Part shown: positions 1,873 through 25,017 of the stretch, piece after piece
How the letters are laid out: each line of letters starts with the position of its first letter
Position numbering within the stretch: position 1 is the stretch's first letter
IMG/VR virus record: IMGVR_UViG_3300044301_001729
Coordinates: 1 to 32,758 of that record
DNA length: 32,758 nucleotides
Strand: one strand, 5' to 3'
DNA from: a virus
Notes under the pieces: model-generated
The model's input: only the letters and a program-made list of their open reading frames with translations
What the model was told of the DNA's origin: nothing
Database searches by the model: none
Program-made: the position numbers and the translations under genes

Positions 1873-2187
1873 TTAGCTTATAGTAATGTAGCCTTTATCT
1901 TCTAACTGACCTCTATAATAGCTAAAGATTTTTTGAGGTGATTGAACAGTCCTTAAACCATTCTCAAGTAATACGCTATTCTTACCCGTAGCATCATCGC
2001 CTACTAACTGTTTAATAGTTAGTGTATGATCTTTAGCCTTAACTAAGGTTTCTACTATCTTCTGAGCCTGAGGAGGTATATCAGCGCCCTTAGTAGATAT
2101 TAATGTTACCTTAGCGTTATTATCAAAGCTTCTTACACTAGAAGCCTTATAATTTAGATCAATTTTATTTTCAGTTTTATTATTCAT
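1873..2187 (-). CDS. Small phage protein, winged-helix-like; paralog A of a three-member family
   Basis: 104 residues. It is clearly paralogous to the product of 2667-3011: both have PxQAxKIVExLVKAKxHTLT, then a Q-L-V-G turn, then TVQ-(S/T)-P-x-KI and a final (L)-x-D/E-x-G-(Y/F)-I. The order helix, helix, helix, short strand ending in KGYITI resembles a winged helix, so a DNA-binding role is a reasonable inference, but the family is unknown to me. It is a single-gene unit with its own promoter (2259-2287) and terminator (1826-1854), downstream of a repeat cluster. The ribosome site before the ATG (GAGTAAAACT) is weak. Confidence 0.78.
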   Translation of the reverse strand: MNNKTENKIDLNYKASSVRSFDNNAKVTLISTKGADIPPQAQKIVETLVKAKDHTLTIKQLVGDDATGKNSVLLENGLRTVQSPQKIFSYYRGQLEDKGYITIS

Positions 2188-2258
2188 AGTTTTACTCTAT
2201 ATGAAGGCTATTATAGTTTAGTATTAAATAGTGCCTTCTTAACTATTTAATATATATA

Positions 2259-2287
2259 ACTATATACTACTTTACTATTTAATACAA
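2259..2287 (-). promoter_or_regulatory. Promoter of paralog A
   Basis: Minus-strand TTGTAT (2282-2287), 17-base spacer, TATAGT (2259-2264). The surrounding sequence (AAAGTAGTATATA, TATATATATTAA) is nearly the same as at 3064-3092 upstream of paralog B, so the two promoters appear to be duplicates. Confidence 0.6.
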
Positions 2288-2299
2288 TACCCTTTTACT

Positions 2300-2470
2300 T
2301 TTATTTACTTATTCTTTTTTATATAAAACGCCGTCGTCTCTTCGCCTTATCGTCTGTTCTTTTTTATATAAATGGAATCGTCTCTTCGTCTGTTCTTGGG
2401 TATGGGTTAACTGTCCTTGGGATAGAGTAGAGTGATAGAGTAGAGTAGAGCGATAGAGTAGAGCGACGAT
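2300..2470. repeat. Repeat cluster upstream of paralog A
   Basis: Contains one exact copy of the 19-mer tggaatcgtctcttcgtct (2373-2391), a degenerate second copy (about 2318-2350), each next to a TTTATATAAA-like sequence, and a run of TAGAG pentamers (2421-2465) interrupted by GTGA and CGA. Together with 3160-3299 it forms the repeated part of two duplicated modules near the small terminase gene. I see no gene in it. Confidence 0.7.
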
Positions 2471-2487
2471 TAGACGAGAAGATCGAG

Positions 2488-2517
2488 CAAAAAGAAAGGC
2501 GACCGAAGTCGCCCTTC
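2488..2517 (-). terminator. Strong intrinsic terminator with TTCG tetraloop
   Basis: On the minus strand GGCGAC-TTCG-GTCGCC (2498-2513) with extra flanking pairs is followed by TTTCTTTTTGC. It lies 10 bases beyond the stop of the 46-aa gene and ends the paralog B transcript. Confidence 0.9.
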
Positions 2518-2526
2518 TCGATTAGT

Positions 2527-2667
2527 CTAACCGTTGTTGAAGTCGTCTAGCCAGTCGACCGCTTCCGCGTAGTCAACACCAAATGTACTTCTGTTAAACT
2601 TGTGGTTTTCCGAGTCGAGGATCCCTTGGGCAACCTCTGCGTTTTTGGTTTTTAGTTTCTTTTCCAT
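2527..2667 (-). CDS. 46-aa acidic hypothetical protein
   Basis: ATG at 2665-2667 overlaps the TGA of paralog B by one base (TGATG), and the frame runs 46 codons to TAG at 2527-2529, just before the tetraloop terminator. The protein starts MEKKLKTKNAEVAQGILDSE and ends with an acidic helix (DYAEAVDWLDDFNNG). Translational coupling and the terminator right after the stop support it as a real gene. The MEKK start also resembles that of the upstream gene. Function unknown. Confidence 0.65.
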   Translation of the reverse strand: MEKKLKTKNAEVAQGILDSENHKFNRSTFGVDYAEAVDWLDDFNNG

Positions 2668-3011
2668 CAGCTAATCACCTCAATGAATCCCTCATCGATC
2701 AGTCTACGATTGTAAAACTGCCAGATCTTTCTAGGTGTCTGGACTGTAATCAATCCCACCTCGTCTAGCTTTGAGTTCAATCCTGATTCGTTCTCACCAA
2801 CTAGCTCCTGGACTGTTAGCGTGTGGCCTTTCGCTTTAACCAACGCTTCGACAATCTTACCTGCCTGTGCTGGAAGCTTCCCTGCTTGATCGGTAGTTAT
2901 CAACCTAATCTGGCTATTACCATTGGTCCCTTTACCAACTGGTGCTTTAAAATTAGGATCTATCTTTGCGGTCTTTACAGCGTCGCTTTTCTGTATAGTT
3001 TTCTTTTCCAT
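2667..3011 (-). CDS. Small phage protein, winged-helix-like; paralog B
   Basis: 114 residues with a basic, flexible N-terminus (MEKKTIQKSDAVKTAKIDPN) and a C-terminal domain matching paralog A over about 80 residues: QAGKIVEALVKAKGHTLT, LVGENESG, LITVQTPRKIWQFY and LIDEGFIEV. A weaker third copy is encoded at 8493-8849 (DPLRIFRFYAKRLVDEGYF). A promoter (3064-3092) and an AAGAAAGGAGAAATAAC ribosome site precede the ATG. The likely role is nucleic-acid binding, by analogy with winged helices only. Confidence 0.78.
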   Translation of the reverse strand: MEKKTIQKSDAVKTAKIDPNFKAPVGKGTNGNSQIRLITTDQAGKLPAQAGKIVEALVKAKGHTLTVQELVGENESGLNSKLDEVGLITVQTPRKIWQFYNRRLIDEGFIEVIS

Positions 3012-3159: not shown

Positions 3160-3299
3160 TTATTTATATAAGTGGAATCGTCTCTTCGTCTCTTCGTCTA
3201 GTCTTTGGGCACGGGTCGTGGGTCGTGGTCCGTGAATAGAATGATAGAGTAGAGTAGAGTAGAGTAGTAGAGTGGAATCGTCTCTTCGTCTAATCGTCT
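3160..3299. repeat. Repeat cluster between terS and paralog B
   Basis: Two further exact copies of tggaatcgtctcttcgtct occur at 3173-3191 and 3273-3291. The latter overlaps the last codon of terS. Between them lie TAGAG/GTAGA pentamers (3241-3270) and a GGTCGTG repeat (about 3214-3230). The stretch matches the cluster at 2300-2470 in content and order. Direct repeats next to a small terminase gene are a usual place for a packaging (pac or cos) recognition site, but this is inference. Confidence 0.7.
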
Positions 3300-3823
3300 T
3301 GAGTAAAATCTCCCTCGATCACGTTTGACTCGGTTGCTCGCTTCTTGATTAGTTCTTCGAGTCGAGTGAGTATGTCGTCCTTGGACATCATGTCGATCTT
3401 CGCGGTCAGGATCTCGCGTCTATCGATGTAGAGTCCTCCCGCCTTGCCTCGATGAACCTCCGCTGTGATGGCGGCGGAGATTTGTCCTTGGTCCTTTGCC
3501 TCCTCCCGTAGGTCGTGGAGGGTGGAAAGATGGCTCTCCAGGGAAACTGCATCTCGCTCTGCGAGTGACATTTCCAACTCTATGAGGTAGTTTCGTACAA
3601 CTGGGTTATGATTTAGTAGAACACTCCCCTGTGTCTTTGCACCCTTCCGATCTTTGGTATACCCTGCTTTAATAGCTGCTTCTGTAGCTGTTTGACCCTT
3701 CAAATACTCCTTACAAAACTTCTTTTGCTTCGAGTTGAGTGGTTGCCAAGTCTTACCGTTGGAATCTATATAGGCTTTCCCATCTTCGGTGGGTGTTAAA
3801 GATGTGTAGGTTAGTTGTTTCAT
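3290..3823 (-). CDS. terS: Terminase small subunit (Terminase_2-like)
   Basis: 177 residues. The central part has the signature of the small terminase family: LNSKQKKFCKEYLKGQTATE followed by AAIKAGYTKDRKGAK, GSVLLNHNPVVRNYL. This is a helix-turn-helix region that recognises the packaging site, followed by a helical oligomerisation segment (LESHLSTLHDLREEAKDQGQ) and an acidic C-terminus that would contact the large terminase. The start at 3823 has GGGAG seven bases upstream. It opens the rightmost minus-strand operon, behind a regulatory region of several hundred bases. Its stop lies inside a 19-bp direct repeat. Confidence 0.8.
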   Translation of the reverse strand: MKQLTYTSLTPTEDGKAYIDSNGKTWQPLNSKQKKFCKEYLKGQTATEAAIKAGYTKDRKGAKTQGSVLLNHNPVVRNYLIELEMSLAERDAVSLESHLSTLHDLREEAKDQGQISAAITAEVHRGKAGGLYIDRREILTAKIDMMSKDDILTRLEELIKKRATESNVIEGDFTQDD

Positions 3824-3849
3824 AGAGTTCTCCCAATGTTATTACAATC

Positions 3850-4080
3850 GTATTATAAAACAAACTGTTTAAATACTTTTCTCATGCCCTCTAGAGAATC
3901 TTACCATACATTTGTAATAACTAATAGAAAATCTATTACTTTTGATCATCACAACAATCCAATGACCAAGAGCCTTGTAGCTCGATTCTATTAGTATATT
4001 AGAGATATTAGTAGTTTTGCGAAACTTTTTTCAAAAACTTTTTTATTTTACCAGATAACAATACTAATAGATTTAATAGA
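3850..4080 (-). promoter_or_regulatory. Regulatory region R1 upstream of terS
   Basis: No gene in this stretch. It contains a TATAAT box at 3852-3857 (minus strand) and several CTAATAGA/TCTATTAG sites (3921-3928, 3932-3938, 3987-3994, 4064-4071); the first two form an inverted repeat TAATAGA-AAA-TCTATTA. Two blocks, 3877-3899 and 3984-4019, match blocks in the region upstream of the plus-strand SNF2 gene (23472-23495 and 23365-23400) when read towards the downstream gene. This suggests a shared regulator of the two transcription units. Confidence 0.6.
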
Positions 4081-4119
4081 AAAAACCCCCGAAAGTCGTC
4101 GTAGTCAACAATCGGGGGT
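4081..4119 (-). terminator. Intrinsic terminator of the accessory operon
   Basis: On the minus strand CCCCCGA and TCGGGGG form a stem around a loop of about 19 bases, followed by TTTTTT. It lies 15 bases after the stop of the gene at 4134-4337. Confidence 0.85.
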
Positions 4120-4133
4120 CCACTCGAGAGTGA

Positions 4134-4337
4134 TCAGTGGTTCGTTATTCCCATCATAGAGAGCATCCGAATAGGTATCACTTTATCTTCGTTACACTTA
4201 GTGCAACACCTGCCGTTTTCCACGATCGGTTCGGCATTGTGTCCATCAGTCCAGTAGACCTCACCCTCTTTATCTTTGTGGTGATCGATTGCTCCTTTGC
4301 AGATATCACAGATCCGAGTAATGTTTTCTCCCATCAT
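4134..4337 (-). CDS. Small zinc-binding protein
   Basis: 67 residues. CDIC near residue 10 and CCTKC near residue 45 can supply four zinc ligands, as in a zinc ribbon; a DHHKDKEG stretch adds possible histidine ligands. The start is one of two adjacent ATGs overlapping the TGA of the upstream gene. It is the last gene before the terminator at 4081-4119. No function can be assigned. Confidence 0.68.
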   Translation of the reverse strand: MMGENITRICDICKGAIDHHKDKEGEVYWTDGHNAEPIVENGRCCTKCNEDKVIPIRMLSMMGITNH

Positions 4338-8492: not shown

Positions 8493-8849
8493 TTATACCT
8501 TAGAAAAGTAGCCTTCATCCACCAATCTTTTCGCATAGAATCGAAAAATTCTAAGCGGATCTTGACCAGTAGTTAAAGTGCCGTTCTTCACAGCAAGAGC
8601 TACTAAATCTTGGGCAGTGAAGCTTTTAGAGTCTAATTCGCTCTTTTTAGCCTCAGCCGCTGTAAGAATCAGCGCTCTCATCTGTGGAGTAAACCCTTTC
8701 GCTTCAGGCACAGTTCCAATGAACTTGTACAAAGTTCTTGCAGACCCTTTGCCTGTTTTGACAGGTTTAGGTATTGCAGTAACCTTTGCCTTGCTTATAG
8801 GTTTGCTCACTTTTTTTCTAGGTGTAGTCGTTGCAGTTTGTACTTGCAT
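8493..8849 (-). CDS. Small phage protein; distant paralog C of the 1873/2667 family
   Basis: 118 residues: a basic, Lys/Pro/Thr-rich tail (1-40), then a helical domain with FTPQMRALILTAAEAKK, FTAQDLVALAVKNGTLTTG and DPLRIFRFYAKRLVDEGYF. The last part matches the C-termini of the proteins at 1873-2187 and 2667-3011 (P-x-KI-x-x-YY-x-x-L-x-D-x-GY), suggesting a shared winged-helix-like fold. It sits behind its own strong promoter and ribosome site. Confidence 0.72.
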   Translation of the reverse strand: MQVQTATTTPRKKVSKPISKAKVTAIPKPVKTGKGSARTLYKFIGTVPEAKGFTPQMRALILTAAEAKKSELDSKSFTAQDLVALAVKNGTLTTGQDPLRIFRFYAKRLVDEGYFSKV

Positions 8850-11681: not shown

Positions 11682-12020
11682 TCACCAATCCCACCCAGTA
11701 TGTGGTGCCACCTTTTGATTATCCGCTGCTAACTTCACATCACGATCAGCTAACCATTCATCGAATGCTCTTTTTGTTTGGTCTGTGTCTTGGTAGAGTG
11801 CTTTGAGTTCTGTCCATTTATTACGAGCCACGTGAGTGCCATAATAATAGTCGCCCTCGCCAAGCTTACAACGTGTGATTATTTGCCACATGCGTTGTTT
11901 AGTAATGTCGTACTCTTTGCCTAATTCTTCGAGAGTTACTTCTTGTGTTATCCATTTGTCGTACATACTCCTGTATTTAATGGAGTTTTCTTTAGCTTTT
12001 TGTTCTGATATACCTTTCAT
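11682..12020 (-). CDS. Helix-turn-helix protein
   Basis: 112 residues from ATG 12018-12020, which overlaps the polymerase stop as ATGA and has AAAGGA seven bases upstream; a GTG eight codons earlier is less likely. VTLEELGKEYDITKQRMWQI (about 30-50) is a helix-turn-helix of the sigma-70 region 4 or Trp-repressor kind. The C-terminus is a charged helix ending in PHTGWDW. It may regulate phage transcription or bind replication DNA, being translationally coupled to the polymerase. Confidence 0.72.
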   Translation of the reverse strand: MKGISEQKAKENSIKYRSMYDKWITQEVTLEELGKEYDITKQRMWQIITRCKLGEGDYYYGTHVARNKWTELKALYQDTDQTKRAFDEWLADRDVKLAADNQKVAPHTGWDW

Positions 12021-17671: not shown

Positions 17672-19168
17672 TTACATCTGATAGCAGCGCGTTGTTTTGG
17701 GCTCTATTAGATATAAGTTTTTCTTAGTTCGCGTTACACCTACATAGAAAACTCTGTTTTCATCATCAGGGTTTTCTTGATAGTTTTTATAAACTCTTGT
17801 TGTTATATCGGTCAGCAACACTACGTTGGTTGCTTCCCCTCCTTTAGCGGCATGTATAGTGGATAGCCGTATTCTAGGTTGCTTAGTGATTTTTTCTCCT
17901 CGTCTAAGCATGGCTCGTATGTAGCTAAGTTCTTTAGGACTTAATAATGTAAAAACATCGTACCAGTGTCCGTCGGGTAAATCAGGAAACTGGTTCTTTA
18001 AATCTTGATACTGTAGTGTTATATCATTATCTAATAGATCGAGTTGTTTAGAGTTTTCTACCTTAATGTATTTGATAATATTAACACACTCATTTAAAGG
18101 TATTGCTTGTCCTTTTCGTAGTCTTTCCCAGTAAATCACAGCCCTCACCTTACTTTCTGGAATACTTGGTCTGCCTTTCACCTCAAAAAACCACCCCTCA
18201 TTTCTACAATATTCGTCTACGCCCTCTAACAAATAATTAGTTCTCGCTAAAACTAACCACTCCCCGTGTTCCATGTTAACTAATTCTATGTTCGGCTCCC
18301 ACCTAACCATGCCCTCCTCCTTTCTAGGGTTCCACTCTTTGTATATCCTGGACCTTACTTGTCCAATACATTGTTTGGCTACCTTGTGAACAGAAGAAGG
18401 TACACGGTAGGACTGCTTTAAGACAAGAGCATTTTTAGAATTATTTATTAAATAATCTACATCGGCTCCTGCCCATTTATAAATGGCTTGGTCATCATCC
18501 CCCGCCACATAAATACGATCAGCTTTCTCTGCTAACTTACGCACAACCTTCCACTGTAATGGAGAAAGATCTTGAGCTTCATCAACAAACATAACATCTA
18601 ATTTAGGCACGTCGCCTTTTTCAATAAACATCTCAAGCATATCCGTATAATCAACTAGCAATCTATCTTCTTTAAATAACTTTAACCCTCTAGCATAACG
18701 TTCTAATTCAAACCAACCGACAGCGTCTTCTACTTCGTGCCATTGATCTTCTAAAGGAACATTTCTCATACGGGCAAGGTTTTCTATAAAAGCCAAACGA
18801 TCATCATGCGTCATGCCAAAGATATGCCCTTCGTCTGAGGTAGTTCTACCTGTTAACCTTAAATTAAGTTTCTCATTTAGATCGGTTATGTCTGATCTAC
18901 TTATTACGCTTTCCCTCGTGAGACCTAATTGTCTAAACGCTAAAGAATGTAGAGTTCTAAAGAAAGGTAGGTCTTTGTTGGAGATATTAAACTTACGCAT
19001 AGCTCTTTCTTTTCCCTCATTAACTGCCTTTTTAGTGAAGGTAAAAAATCCAATTCTATCAGGTTCTGTACCTTTTTCTAATTCATCTTCGATTAAACCA
19101 AGTAAGGTACTGGTTTTTCCAGTTCCAGGAGGTCCAAGAATAACTTGTGTGTGAATAGGAAGCGTCAT
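17672..19168 (-). CDS. UvrD/Rep-like superfamily 1 DNA helicase
   Basis: 498 residues. Walker A GPPGTGKT (12-19), FFTFTKKAV (motif Ia), motif II DEAQD (196-200), motif III GDDDQAIYKWAGA (223-235), QSYR (IV), STIHAAKGGEATNVVLL (V) and VFYVGVTRTKKNLYL (VI) identify an SF1A helicase, shorter than cellular UvrD. No DnaB-type helicase is encoded in the window, so this enzyme may unwind the replication fork or act in recombination. The ATG overlaps the stop of the AlkB-like gene as ATGA. Confidence 0.92.
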   Translation of the reverse strand: MTLPIHTQVILGPPGTGKTSTLLGLIEDELEKGTEPDRIGFFTFTKKAVNEGKERAMRKFNISNKDLPFFRTLHSLAFRQLGLTRESVISRSDITDLNEKLNLRLTGRTTSDEGHIFGMTHDDRLAFIENLARMRNVPLEDQWHEVEDAVGWFELERYARGLKLFKEDRLLVDYTDMLEMFIEKGDVPKLDVMFVDEAQDLSPLQWKVVRKLAEKADRIYVAGDDDQAIYKWAGADVDYLINNSKNALVLKQSYRVPSSVHKVAKQCIGQVRSRIYKEWNPRKEEGMVRWEPNIELVNMEHGEWLVLARTNYLLEGVDEYCRNEGWFFEVKGRPSIPESKVRAVIYWERLRKGQAIPLNECVNIIKYIKVENSKQLDLLDNDITLQYQDLKNQFPDLPDGHWYDVFTLLSPKELSYIRAMLRRGEKITKQPRIRLSTIHAAKGGEATNVVLLTDITTRVYKNYQENPDDENRVFYVGVTRTKKNLYLIEPKTTRCYQM

Positions 19169-19749
19169 AGTCCCGTTCTAAATGTCAAATTAATTCTCTG
19201 TCCTGTATTCTCCATCGCAGGGATTGAGTGGGTGCTGTTCATTTGTGAATGACCATCAAATATATAAACGTCTCCATGTTCTATCATGTAGTCTGTTTGA
19301 TTCATGCAATCGTCCATTCCCTGTGTGTCTATCTCGCTTGTATTACTTTCTTTTTTAATATCTTTATCGAACTGTCGCCACTGTAATATTCTAGCTGAGC
19401 CAAAAGAAACACCGACTACTAAATCATTTAAGGTGGGAACTGTATCAGAGTGGTGGGGTATACTAGAATCACCGCCCTCGTATAAACCACACAAACAAAA
19501 ATTAAATCGTACAACTCTTTCAAGTTCTTTGGAGACCAGTAGTTCTGTCGCCATTTTTATGAGTTTCATTTCTTGTGTCCAAGCTTCGGGCTCATATTTT
19601 TTACCTGCATAATCAAAGGTTGCCGTGCCATAACCTTTAGTGGGTCTTCCTTGTACTTCTCTACCGTCGAATACTCGGATAGTCGGTTCGTCCCAATCGG
19701 TTATCTCCACGTTATACTCTTTCAGAGCACCTTTTATAATTTTCATCAT
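19165..19749 (-). CDS. AlkB-like 2-oxoglutarate/Fe(II) dioxygenase
   Basis: 194 residues from ATG 19747-19749 (ATGA overlap with the upstream stop). FNFCLCGLYEGGDSSIPHHS is followed by D102: H100 and D102 form the HxD iron-binding pair. GDVYIFDG leads to H174, the third ligand, in NSTHSIP, and RINLTFR (185-191) has the Arg that binds 2-oxoglutarate. This is the AlkB (2OG-FeII_Oxy_2) layout. Functions could be repair of alkylated phage DNA or RNA, or oxidation of a modified base. It sits two genes upstream of the modification cluster. Confidence 0.88.
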   Translation of the reverse strand: MMKIIKGALKEYNVEITDWDEPTIRVFDGREVQGRPTKGYGTATFDYAGKKYEPEAWTQEMKLIKMATELLVSKELERVVRFNFCLCGLYEGGDSSIPHHSDTVPTLNDLVVGVSFGSARILQWRQFDKDIKKESNTSEIDTQGMDDCMNQTDYMIEHGDVYIFDGHSQMNSTHSIPAMENTGQRINLTFRTGL

Positions 19750-20033
19750 TTGTTTTTTGCTTGTTCCTCTAGCCAAGCATGAATTCCCTTGTCCCAAACC
19801 TCTTTAGTTACTCTCACTCCGTTAAAACGATAAATCATTCCTTCGTCAGCCATGTTTTGAGTAACGTCTTTAAAGTTCCCTACGTCCTTATCCAGAAGAT
19901 CGTAAATCAGTTGTTGTACTAACTCTTTAAGTTCGTTACGCGTTAGTAGTTGTTTAGAGTGTTTATTGTGATAAATATTACTTAAATGATTTCTTTCATC
20001 ATCGTTTAACTCTATAGATACATTGGTTTTCAT
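19746..20033 (-). CDS. Hypothetical protein, possible ribbon-helix-helix start
   Basis: 95 residues. MKTNVSIELNDDERNHLSNI resembles the strand and first helix of ribbon-helix-helix proteins, but the rest (ELVQQLIYDLLDKDVGNFKD, VWDKGIHAWLEEQ) does not clearly follow it. ATG and TGA overlaps with both neighbours tie it to the primase and the dioxygenase. Not recognised. Confidence 0.65.
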   Translation of the reverse strand: MKTNVSIELNDDERNHLSNIYHNKHSKQLLTRNELKELVQQLIYDLLDKDVGNFKDVTQNMADEGMIYRFNGVRVTKEVWDKGIHAWLEEQAKNK

Positions 20034-23281: not shown

Positions 23282-23310
23282 AATATATATACCAATTCCG
23301 TCAAAGTAAA
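23282..23310 (-). promoter_or_regulatory. Promoter of the early replication operon
   Basis: Minus-strand TTTACT (23305-23310), 17 bases, TATATT (23282-23287). It starts the block of replication genes and stands back to back with the plus-strand region that drives the SNF2 gene. Confidence 0.7.
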
Positions 23311-23341
23311 GGATATTATTTATATATAGTTTTTTAAAAGA

Positions 23342-23574
23342 AAAATTTTATCTCAAAAATTTTTCAAAAACTACTAATATCGGTAATAATCTAATAGAAT
23401 TAGAAGAAATCTCAGTGTTTTAGAGGGTTGCAATCTATTAGTTTTCAAAACAAATCTATTAGAAATGGTTAATTCTATTAGAGGGCACGAGAAAAAGATT
23501 TAGTTTGGGCTATATTTTACCTAGTTTGTAATATATCCTACGTTATTAGAAATAGAAATTAGAAAGCAAATTAC
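23342..23574 (+). promoter_or_regulatory. Regulatory region R2 upstream of the SNF2 gene
   Basis: No gene. It holds CTAATAGA at 23391-23398 and TCTATTAG at 23434-23441, 23455-23462 and 23474-23481, and two blocks (23365-23400, 23472-23495) that match region R1 upstream of terS. The second block has TTCTATTAGAGGGCACGAGA against TTCTCTAGAGGGCATGAGA in R1. The actual -10/-35 of the SNF2 promoter is not clear; TATATTTTACC and TGTAATATA near 23510-23540 are candidates. Confidence 0.6.
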
Positions 23575-25017
23575 ATGCAGTATAAGTTTAAAACAAAACC
23601 TTATAAGCACCAACTTGAATCCTTAAAAAGGTCGTGGAATAAGCATGAGTACGCATATTTCATGGAAATGGGGACAGGTAAGTCTAAGGTTCTTATAGAT
23701 AATATTGCTCTATTATATGATAGAGGAGGTATTAATGCGGCTATTATTGTTGCTCCAAAAGGGGTTTACAGAAATTGGTCAGAGAAAGAAATACCTGCTC
23801 ATATGCCTGACCATGTGTTAAGGCACGTGGCAGTATGGAATCCCGCACCAACTAAAGCTCAGAAGAACGAATTGGTAAAGCTTTTTGATCCAACACAAGA
23901 CCTTAAAATATTGGTTATTAATGTAGAAGCGTTTAGCACTAAGAAAGGAGTAGCTTTTGTTGAGAGATTTATCTTAGCTCACAATGCTTTATTAGCGGTT
24001 GATGAGTCAACAACTATTAAAAACCCCAAAGCACAGCGTACCAAGAACCTATTAAAATTAGCGATTAATACTAAATACCGTCGAATTTTAACAGGTTTCC
24101 CTGTTACGCGATCTCCTTTAGATTTATATAGTCAATGTTCTTTCTTGTCTCCACAACTATTGGGACATGCTTCGTACTATTCTTTTCAAAATAGATACGC
24201 ACAACTAATCAATAGGAAAATGGGAACTAGATCATTTAGACAGGTTGTTGGTTATCAGAATTTAGAAGAACTTACAACAGCATTAGATTCTTTTTCATAC
24301 AGGGTTTTAAAGAAAGAATGTTTAGACCTCCCCGATAAAATATATCAACGTAGGGAAGTGGAATTAACTCCTGAACAAAGGAAAGTTTATAAAGAACTTA
24401 AAGAGTATGCTATGGCGGAGTTGGAATCTCACGAAACGGTTAGTGTTACTTCTGTTCTTACTCAAATACTTAGGCTACATCAAGTAGTCTGCGGTTTTGT
24501 CAAACACGACAACGGCGAAGAAGTAGAAATTAAAAACAACCGTTTAGATGAATTAATTGATATTTTACAAGAAGTACAAGGCAAAACTATTATTTGGGCA
24601 AACTATCAATACGATATTAAACGCATATTAAAGACACTTCACAACATAACAGGAGTTAATAGTGTAGCTACTTATTACGGAGAAACACCTGACGAAGAAC
24701 GACAAGAAATAATTCGTCGTTTTCAGGATCCTAATTCAGAACTACAGTATTTAATCAGTAACGTTCAAACAGGGGGTTATGGTATTACTTTGACAGCAGC
24801 GAGTAATGTTATTTATTACTCTAACAACTATGATTTAGAAAAACGTTTACAGTCAGAGGATCGTGCACACCGTATAGGTCAAGACAATAAAGTTACTTAT
24901 ATTGATTTAGTGGCTAAAGGAACTGTTGATGAAAAGATTGTAAAAGCTTTACGCAACAAACTTAATTTAGCTCAAGAAGTTCTTGGCGATGAGAAGTGGA
25001 AAGATTGGATAGGCTAA
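23575..25017 (+). CDS. SNF2-family (superfamily 2) DNA helicase/translocase
   Basis: 480 residues. YKHQLESLK (Q motif), MEMGTGKSKV (motif I, K36), VDEST (motif II, 142-146), LTGFPV (III), a C-terminal RecA lobe with TIIWANYQ (IV), QTGGYGITLTAASNVIYY (V) and SEDRAHRIGQ (VI, about 427-436) define a SNF2-type ATPase without accessory domains. Phage members are thought to remodel replication or recombination intermediates. It is the only plus-strand gene in the window, alone between the early and virion blocks, and its end overlaps the convergent 205-aa gene by four bases. No clear AAGGAG stands before the ATG, unlike other genes here. Confidence 0.93.
   Translation: MQYKFKTKPYKHQLESLKRSWNKHEYAYFMEMGTGKSKVLIDNIALLYDRGGINAAIIVAPKGVYRNWSEKEIPAHMPDHVLRHVAVWNPAPTKAQKNELVKLFDPTQDLKILVINVEAFSTKKGVAFVERFILAHNALLAVDESTTIKNPKAQRTKNLLKLAINTKYRRILTGFPVTRSPLDLYSQCSFLSPQLLGHASYYSFQNRYAQLINRKMGTRSFRQVVGYQNLEELTTALDSFSYRVLKKECLDLPDKIYQRREVELTPEQRKVYKELKEYAMAELESHETVSVTSVLTQILRLHQVVCGFVKHDNGEEVEIKNNRLDELIDILQEVQGKTIIWANYQYDIKRILKTLHNITGVNSVATYYGETPDEERQEIIRRFQDPNSELQYLISNVQTGGYGITLTAASNVIYYSNNYDLEKRLQSEDRAHRIGQDNKVTYIDLVAKGTVDEKIVKALRNKLNLAQEVLGDEKWKDWIG

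Follow-up and report, generated by a model that had tools for sequence, protein, structure and literature searches.

A common ordered DNA element, always in one polarity, precedes both terS and an SNF2 helicase gene throughout the group of phages to which the marine phage studied here belongs, and as far as we searched it occurs nowhere else. In the window (the whole stretch of DNA analysed, 32,758 nucleotides of virus record IMGVR_UViG_3300044301_001729) its two copies lie about 19.5 kb apart, namely R1 (3850-4080, minus strand), ahead of terS, and R2 (23340-23535, plus strand), ahead of SNF2 in the divergent gap which that gene shares with the early/replication operon. Judged from their sequence, R1 and R2 are probably control regions that lie upstream of two promoters regulated together.

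Read toward the gene, both regions begin with A/T tracts, which are followed by three CTAATA-type (TAATA) repeats in steps of first 9 and then 8 bp, a spacer carrying TCTATTAG sites in opposite orientation, the GAGGGCAYGAGAAAA box, whose two forms are both described by GAGGGCA(C/T)GAGAAAA, and finally TTGTAATA 44-45 bp past the box start (Table 1). The earlier note had reported R1, R2 and two blocks shared between them, all of which are present where it placed them. The shared element is, however, longer than first noted, in that it also includes the 9/8-bp triple, which is its best-conserved part, the A-tracts and TTGTAATA at a fixed spacing; the note did not mention a terminator-like hairpin just upstream of R1 either. 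That the inverted sites act as a hairpin or cruciform, in RNA or in DNA, is very improbable: the window and some relatives have perfectly complementary arms of 12-13 nt, and in a few clades the arms change together, but complementarity within sequences is hardly higher than that between sequences (8.44 versus 7.90 for R2; 8.23 versus 8.37 for R1). A hairpin was accordingly rejected on covariation, as the arms do not co-vary beyond background.

Table 1. Positions in the window of the elements of R1 and R2, of the adjoining genes and of candidate binding proteins
Feature	Position	Strand	Basis
Two paralogues of the 118-aa protein, just behind terS (2667-3011, 1873-2187)	1873..3011	-	27-33% identity
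terS (Terminase_2), first gene behind R1	3290..3823	-	Pfam E 6e-14
R1 TTGTAATA, 44 bp past box start	3840..3847	-	spacing analysis
TATAAT, possible R1 -10, 34 bp past box start	3852..3857	-	thinned relatives
R1 box GAGGGCATGAGAAAA	3877..3891	-	viral collection scan by box
R1 inverted site pair TAATAGA / TCTATTAG	3921..3938	-	sequence reading, site count
R1 triple repeat CTAATATCTCTAATATACTAATA, 9- and 8-bp steps	3989..4011	-	pattern scan, near-complete relatives
R1 A/T-tract segment	4013..4050	-	sequence reading; consensus of relatives
Extra TCTATTAG site upstream of R1	4064..4071	-	exact-site count
Terminator-like hairpin with T-run, ends early operon, just upstream of R1	4078..4135	-	RNA fold -24.7 kcal/mol, z -3.8
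Candidate binder: 118-aa protein, basic tail, winged-helix-like model	8493..8849	-	co-occurrence; model pLDDT 70
HTH protein of 112 aa resembling sigma70 region 4; candidate binder or partner of RNA polymerase	11682..12020	-	co-occurrence; model pLDDT 81.5
Leader matching AGAAATTAGAAAG, before divergent early operon	23272	-	relatives
Sigma70-like promoter of divergent early/replication operon, TTTACT-17-TATATT	23282..23310	-	scan: 3 found versus 1.9 expected, weak alone
R2 A/T-tract segment	23340..23371	+	sequence reading; relatives
R2 triple repeat CTAATATCGGTAATAATCTAATA	23374..23396	+	pattern scan, near-complete relatives
R2 TCTATTAG site, first	23434..23441	+	exact-site count
R2 TCTATTAG site, second; 21 bp past first	23455..23462	+	exact-site count
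R2 TCTATTAG site, third; 19 bp past second, abuts box	23474..23481	+	exact-site count
R2 box GAGGGCACGAGAAAA	23481..23495	+	relatives; viral collection scan
TTGGGC, possible -35 of SNF2 promoter	23505..23510	+	thinned relatives
R2 TTGTAATA, 45 bp past box start, possible -10	23526..23533	+	spacing analysis
Conserved leader AGAAATTAGAAAG before SNF2	23554..23566	+	relatives
SNF2-type helicase gene behind R2	23575..25017	+	Pfam E 1e-24

Exact TCTATTAG occurs 11 times in the window against 2.27 expected (the maximum in 100 shuffles being 6), and seven of these occurrences fall in R1 and R2, with the other four at 17703, 18031, 26997 and 32671. Under a slightly wider definition of the site R1 holds seven, a count reached by 0 of 1000 local dinucleotide shuffles (mean 0.55), and R2 holds six, reached by one of 1000 (mean 1.12). 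The two regions further have twelve 10-mers in common (shuffle mean 0.32, maximum 5), and in a 65-kb close relative they are the two densest 250-bp places for the sites.

Searches with SNF2 and TerS gave 80 loci each. Of 18 near-complete relatives, 17 have the triple repeat once on each strand, a reversed control pattern having no occurrence, and the 18th, a 57.9-kb contig (G013), has a single copy. Among 115 distinct triple elements the steps are 9/8 in 113 and 8/9 in two. The box is present on both strands in 10 of these 18 relatives, once in seven, and is absent from G013; in part of the relatives R2 has kept the triple while the box has been lost or altered. A scan of 2.9 million viral contigs with the 17-base box alone as the query gave at least 118 places; among the matches listed 100 stand before terS, 17 before SNF2 and one is a stray, and the triple accompanies the box wherever the upstream DNA suffices, the stray excepted. 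The latter (L091, near 3117) is a box with neither the triple repeat nor a terS or SNF2 gene behind it. Megablast against named phages gave no match, and no CTAATA arrays were found in HTVC027P, 023Pt_psg01, DSL-LC04 or HTVC023P. Both site enrichment and conservation in relatives thus give good support to the earlier claim that two distant transcription units have a multi-site control region in common. It would have been refuted if TCTATTAG were as common elsewhere or the blocks were not conserved in relatives, and both outcomes are contradicted by the counts above.

R1 comes after the terminator-like hairpin, and as a similar hairpin lies upstream of R1 in 92 of 102 distinct relatives, terS needs a promoter of its own. 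Of the thinned sequences, 14 of 26 for R1 and 16 of 25 for R2 have TTGTAATA at +44/45 from the box, with differing intervening bases (for the window pair alone, p is about 0.011 by shuffles). This is the arrangement of an activator-dependent promoter, i.e. a conserved upstream box at a fixed distance to a -10-like word before the gene. For R2, 14 of 25 thinned relatives show a possible -35, TTTGG, at +22 to +24 past the start of the box; R1 has no -35, and TATAAT is found at +34/35 from the box start in 11 of 26 thinned R1 sequences. Because R1 is without a -35 and its TATAAT lies 18 bp off the usual R2 position, the true -10 is unsure, and TTGTAATA could itself be one more TAATA site. Taken alone, the sigma70-like matches that plain scans give in R1 and R2 do not exceed chance, and for this reason we only infer promoter activity. 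Helical phasing is seen in the distances from triple to box, with R 0.79 at 10.5 bp when 56 thinned sequences are taken and R 0.63 at 10 bp when 15 distinct values are. It is no more than suggestive, because these are related sequences and two clusters of distances fall out of phase.

HTVC027P, a cultured relative, has no RNA polymerase gene and depends on the polymerase of its host (PMC12753301), and no phage single-subunit RNA polymerase, as would go with T7-like promoters, was named among the proteins scanned here, which are a part of the ORFs. We propose that the host RNA polymerase would use a -10 at or near TTGTAATA; with the -10 held by TTGTAATA the box would come to lie about 45-58 bp upstream of the start, a distance at which activators work. 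A candidate phage protein may bind the CTAATA/TCTATTAG sites cooperatively, wrapping or looping the DNA, and its binding would switch on the late operon, from terS onward, together with SNF2, perhaps with repression of the early promoter in the R2 gap meanwhile. Such a middle/late switch, one of the two functions suggested earlier, fits the gene order, and since almost all related genomes have exactly two copies of the core pattern, this pattern is probably a switch that turns both gene groups on together.

The other suggested function was that of a replication origin pair like oriL and oriR of SPP1, in which an initiator binds direct repeats and melts an adjoining A/T-rich stretch. SPP1 has two such origins about 13 kb apart; like R1 and R2, these are two related regions of a single genome that contain direct repeats and A/T-rich parts (PMC6316719). 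In both R1 and R2 the direct repeats adjoin an A/T-rich, weakly paired stretch, and when the 100-bp places of the 65-kb relative are ranked with the least stable first, R2 comes second and R1 fifth; yet equally unstable places exist elsewhere in that genome, and a sister clade has only one such array, before terS. GC skew, which is weak evidence on replication start, takes no turn at R1 or R2, and family scans of the early proteins named no initiator (gp38-like). Unlike the SPP1 origins, the R1/R2 element has a spacing to the gene starts such as promoters have; its polarity toward them is fixed as well. The origin pair therefore gained no support from our analysis, and we consider it unlikely.

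Returning to the promoter reading, the best candidates for the binder, to judge from models and co-occurrence, are the winged-helix-like protein of 118 aa or its pair of paralogues, and the HTH protein that resembles sigma region 4. Both the 118-aa and the HTH proteins are present in 19 of 20 CTAATA-array records, the one lacking them (G016) being without the early region, and both are absent from the four named relatives listed above and from the fragment G021, a co-occurrence that goes by lineage and is confounded with descent. The main sequence match of the HTH protein is to region 4 of RpoD and is weak (E 0.026), and fold searches with the models of the two proteins gave no match below E 0.001. 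HTVC023P has an array of another word, so that its lack of both candidates fits a different binder, but this phage also shows that an array does not in itself require the two proteins. A 95-aa protein encoded next to the primase gene (19746-20033, minus strand) is ribbon-helix-helix-like by eye and poorly conserved; being present in only 2 of 50 relatives, it was rejected as the binder. In DSL-LC04 a protein annotated 'RNA polymerase sigma-G factor' adjoins the primase.

Two further gene sets were observed in these genomes. Between 14542 and 19797 (minus strand) the window encodes thymidylate-synthase-like, 5-hmdU kinase-like, methyltransferase and 2OG-oxygenase proteins, which are probably a base-modification set; it is found in 48-50 of 50 array-bearing relatives and was not found in the four named relatives. 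A late gene of the close relative G001 (L275:12807-14597) combines CHASE2 and adenylate/guanylate cyclase domains and adjoins genes for curlin-repeat proteins; a curli module with adenylate cyclase has already been described in pelagiphages (PMC9599517). In the 2025 transcriptome of HTVC027P all early genes are of unknown function (PMC12753301).

In the sister clade of HTVC023P-type pelagiphages, 27 of 31 thinned sequences have 4-6 CTAGGAA-like sites before terS and 23 of 31 have an AGAGG box there, with a TTTSTAA-like word 38-39 bp past the box in 19 of these 23. A doubled CTAGGAA repeat occurs in 10 of 11 HTVC023P-type records, at one place each (in G029 as two overlapping matches). Like R1, this is an array followed by a box and a fixed-distance word ahead of terS; unlike in the window, the word is CTAGGAA instead of CTAATA, and no CTAGGAA-type array was seen before SNF2 in these phages. 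The common plan with a different word suggests that the plan predates the repeat word; the second copy, R2, would seem to be peculiar to the group that includes the window. A 24-nt inverted repeat flanks the HTVC023P-type array (at most 21 of 24 paired, arms about 195 bp apart; L330:2757-2976 and relatives), and one sequence (L338) carries the same base change in both of its arms and in part of the array. It is possible, though doubtful, that we are dealing with a late-transcription switch of abundant ocean phages on host RNA polymerase, in which a core module of box and -10-like word was kept across clades while the array word was exchanged, the array being recognised by a phage DNA-binding protein of a new type that works with a sigma-region-4-like partner. 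Phages of the HTVC023P type and those related to them occur widely in the ocean, and the question in them is how late genes are timed with the host RNA polymerase; R1 and R2 supply two defined DNA targets along with two candidate proteins, which makes this question directly testable.

The restriction of the sister-clade array to terS speaks for the explanation that R1 is a pac site recognised by TerS, R2 being a copy with another purpose such as gene control by TerS. R1 lies directly ahead of terS, whose product is of the Terminase_2 type, and pac repeats are expected at or before this gene; further, the genomes seem to be circularly permuted, since contig ends lie in the late part of some and the early part of others, as would be expected of such genomes. 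In SPP1 the pac region (with PL1-PL2) before gene 1 (terS) likewise has direct repeats, in three sets, which overlap the terS promoters and a late promoter whose -10 is canonical and whose -35 is atypical, and the recognition of the pac region is thought to proceed via bent DNA (PMC4737164, PMC6316719). However, the repeats differ from those of SPP1, and here a second full element lies before another gene, far from terS and in the opposite direction, which a pac site leaves unexplained; the spacing to TTGTAATA is common to R1 and the SNF2-side R2. Moreover, HTVC027P and 023Pt_psg01, in which terS is turned round, have no such array at terS, and no other arrays were seen there or at the head of their late genes. 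We thus regard a pac site as distinctly unlikely.

As for co-regulated promoters, the p4 protein of phi29 is a phage activator that binds upstream of late promoters and bends the DNA. Unlike in phi29, the sites differ and family scans named no p4 relative; in their proposed multi-site upstream binding, with early and late promoters close to each other, R1 and R2 nevertheless resemble the targets of p4-type activators.
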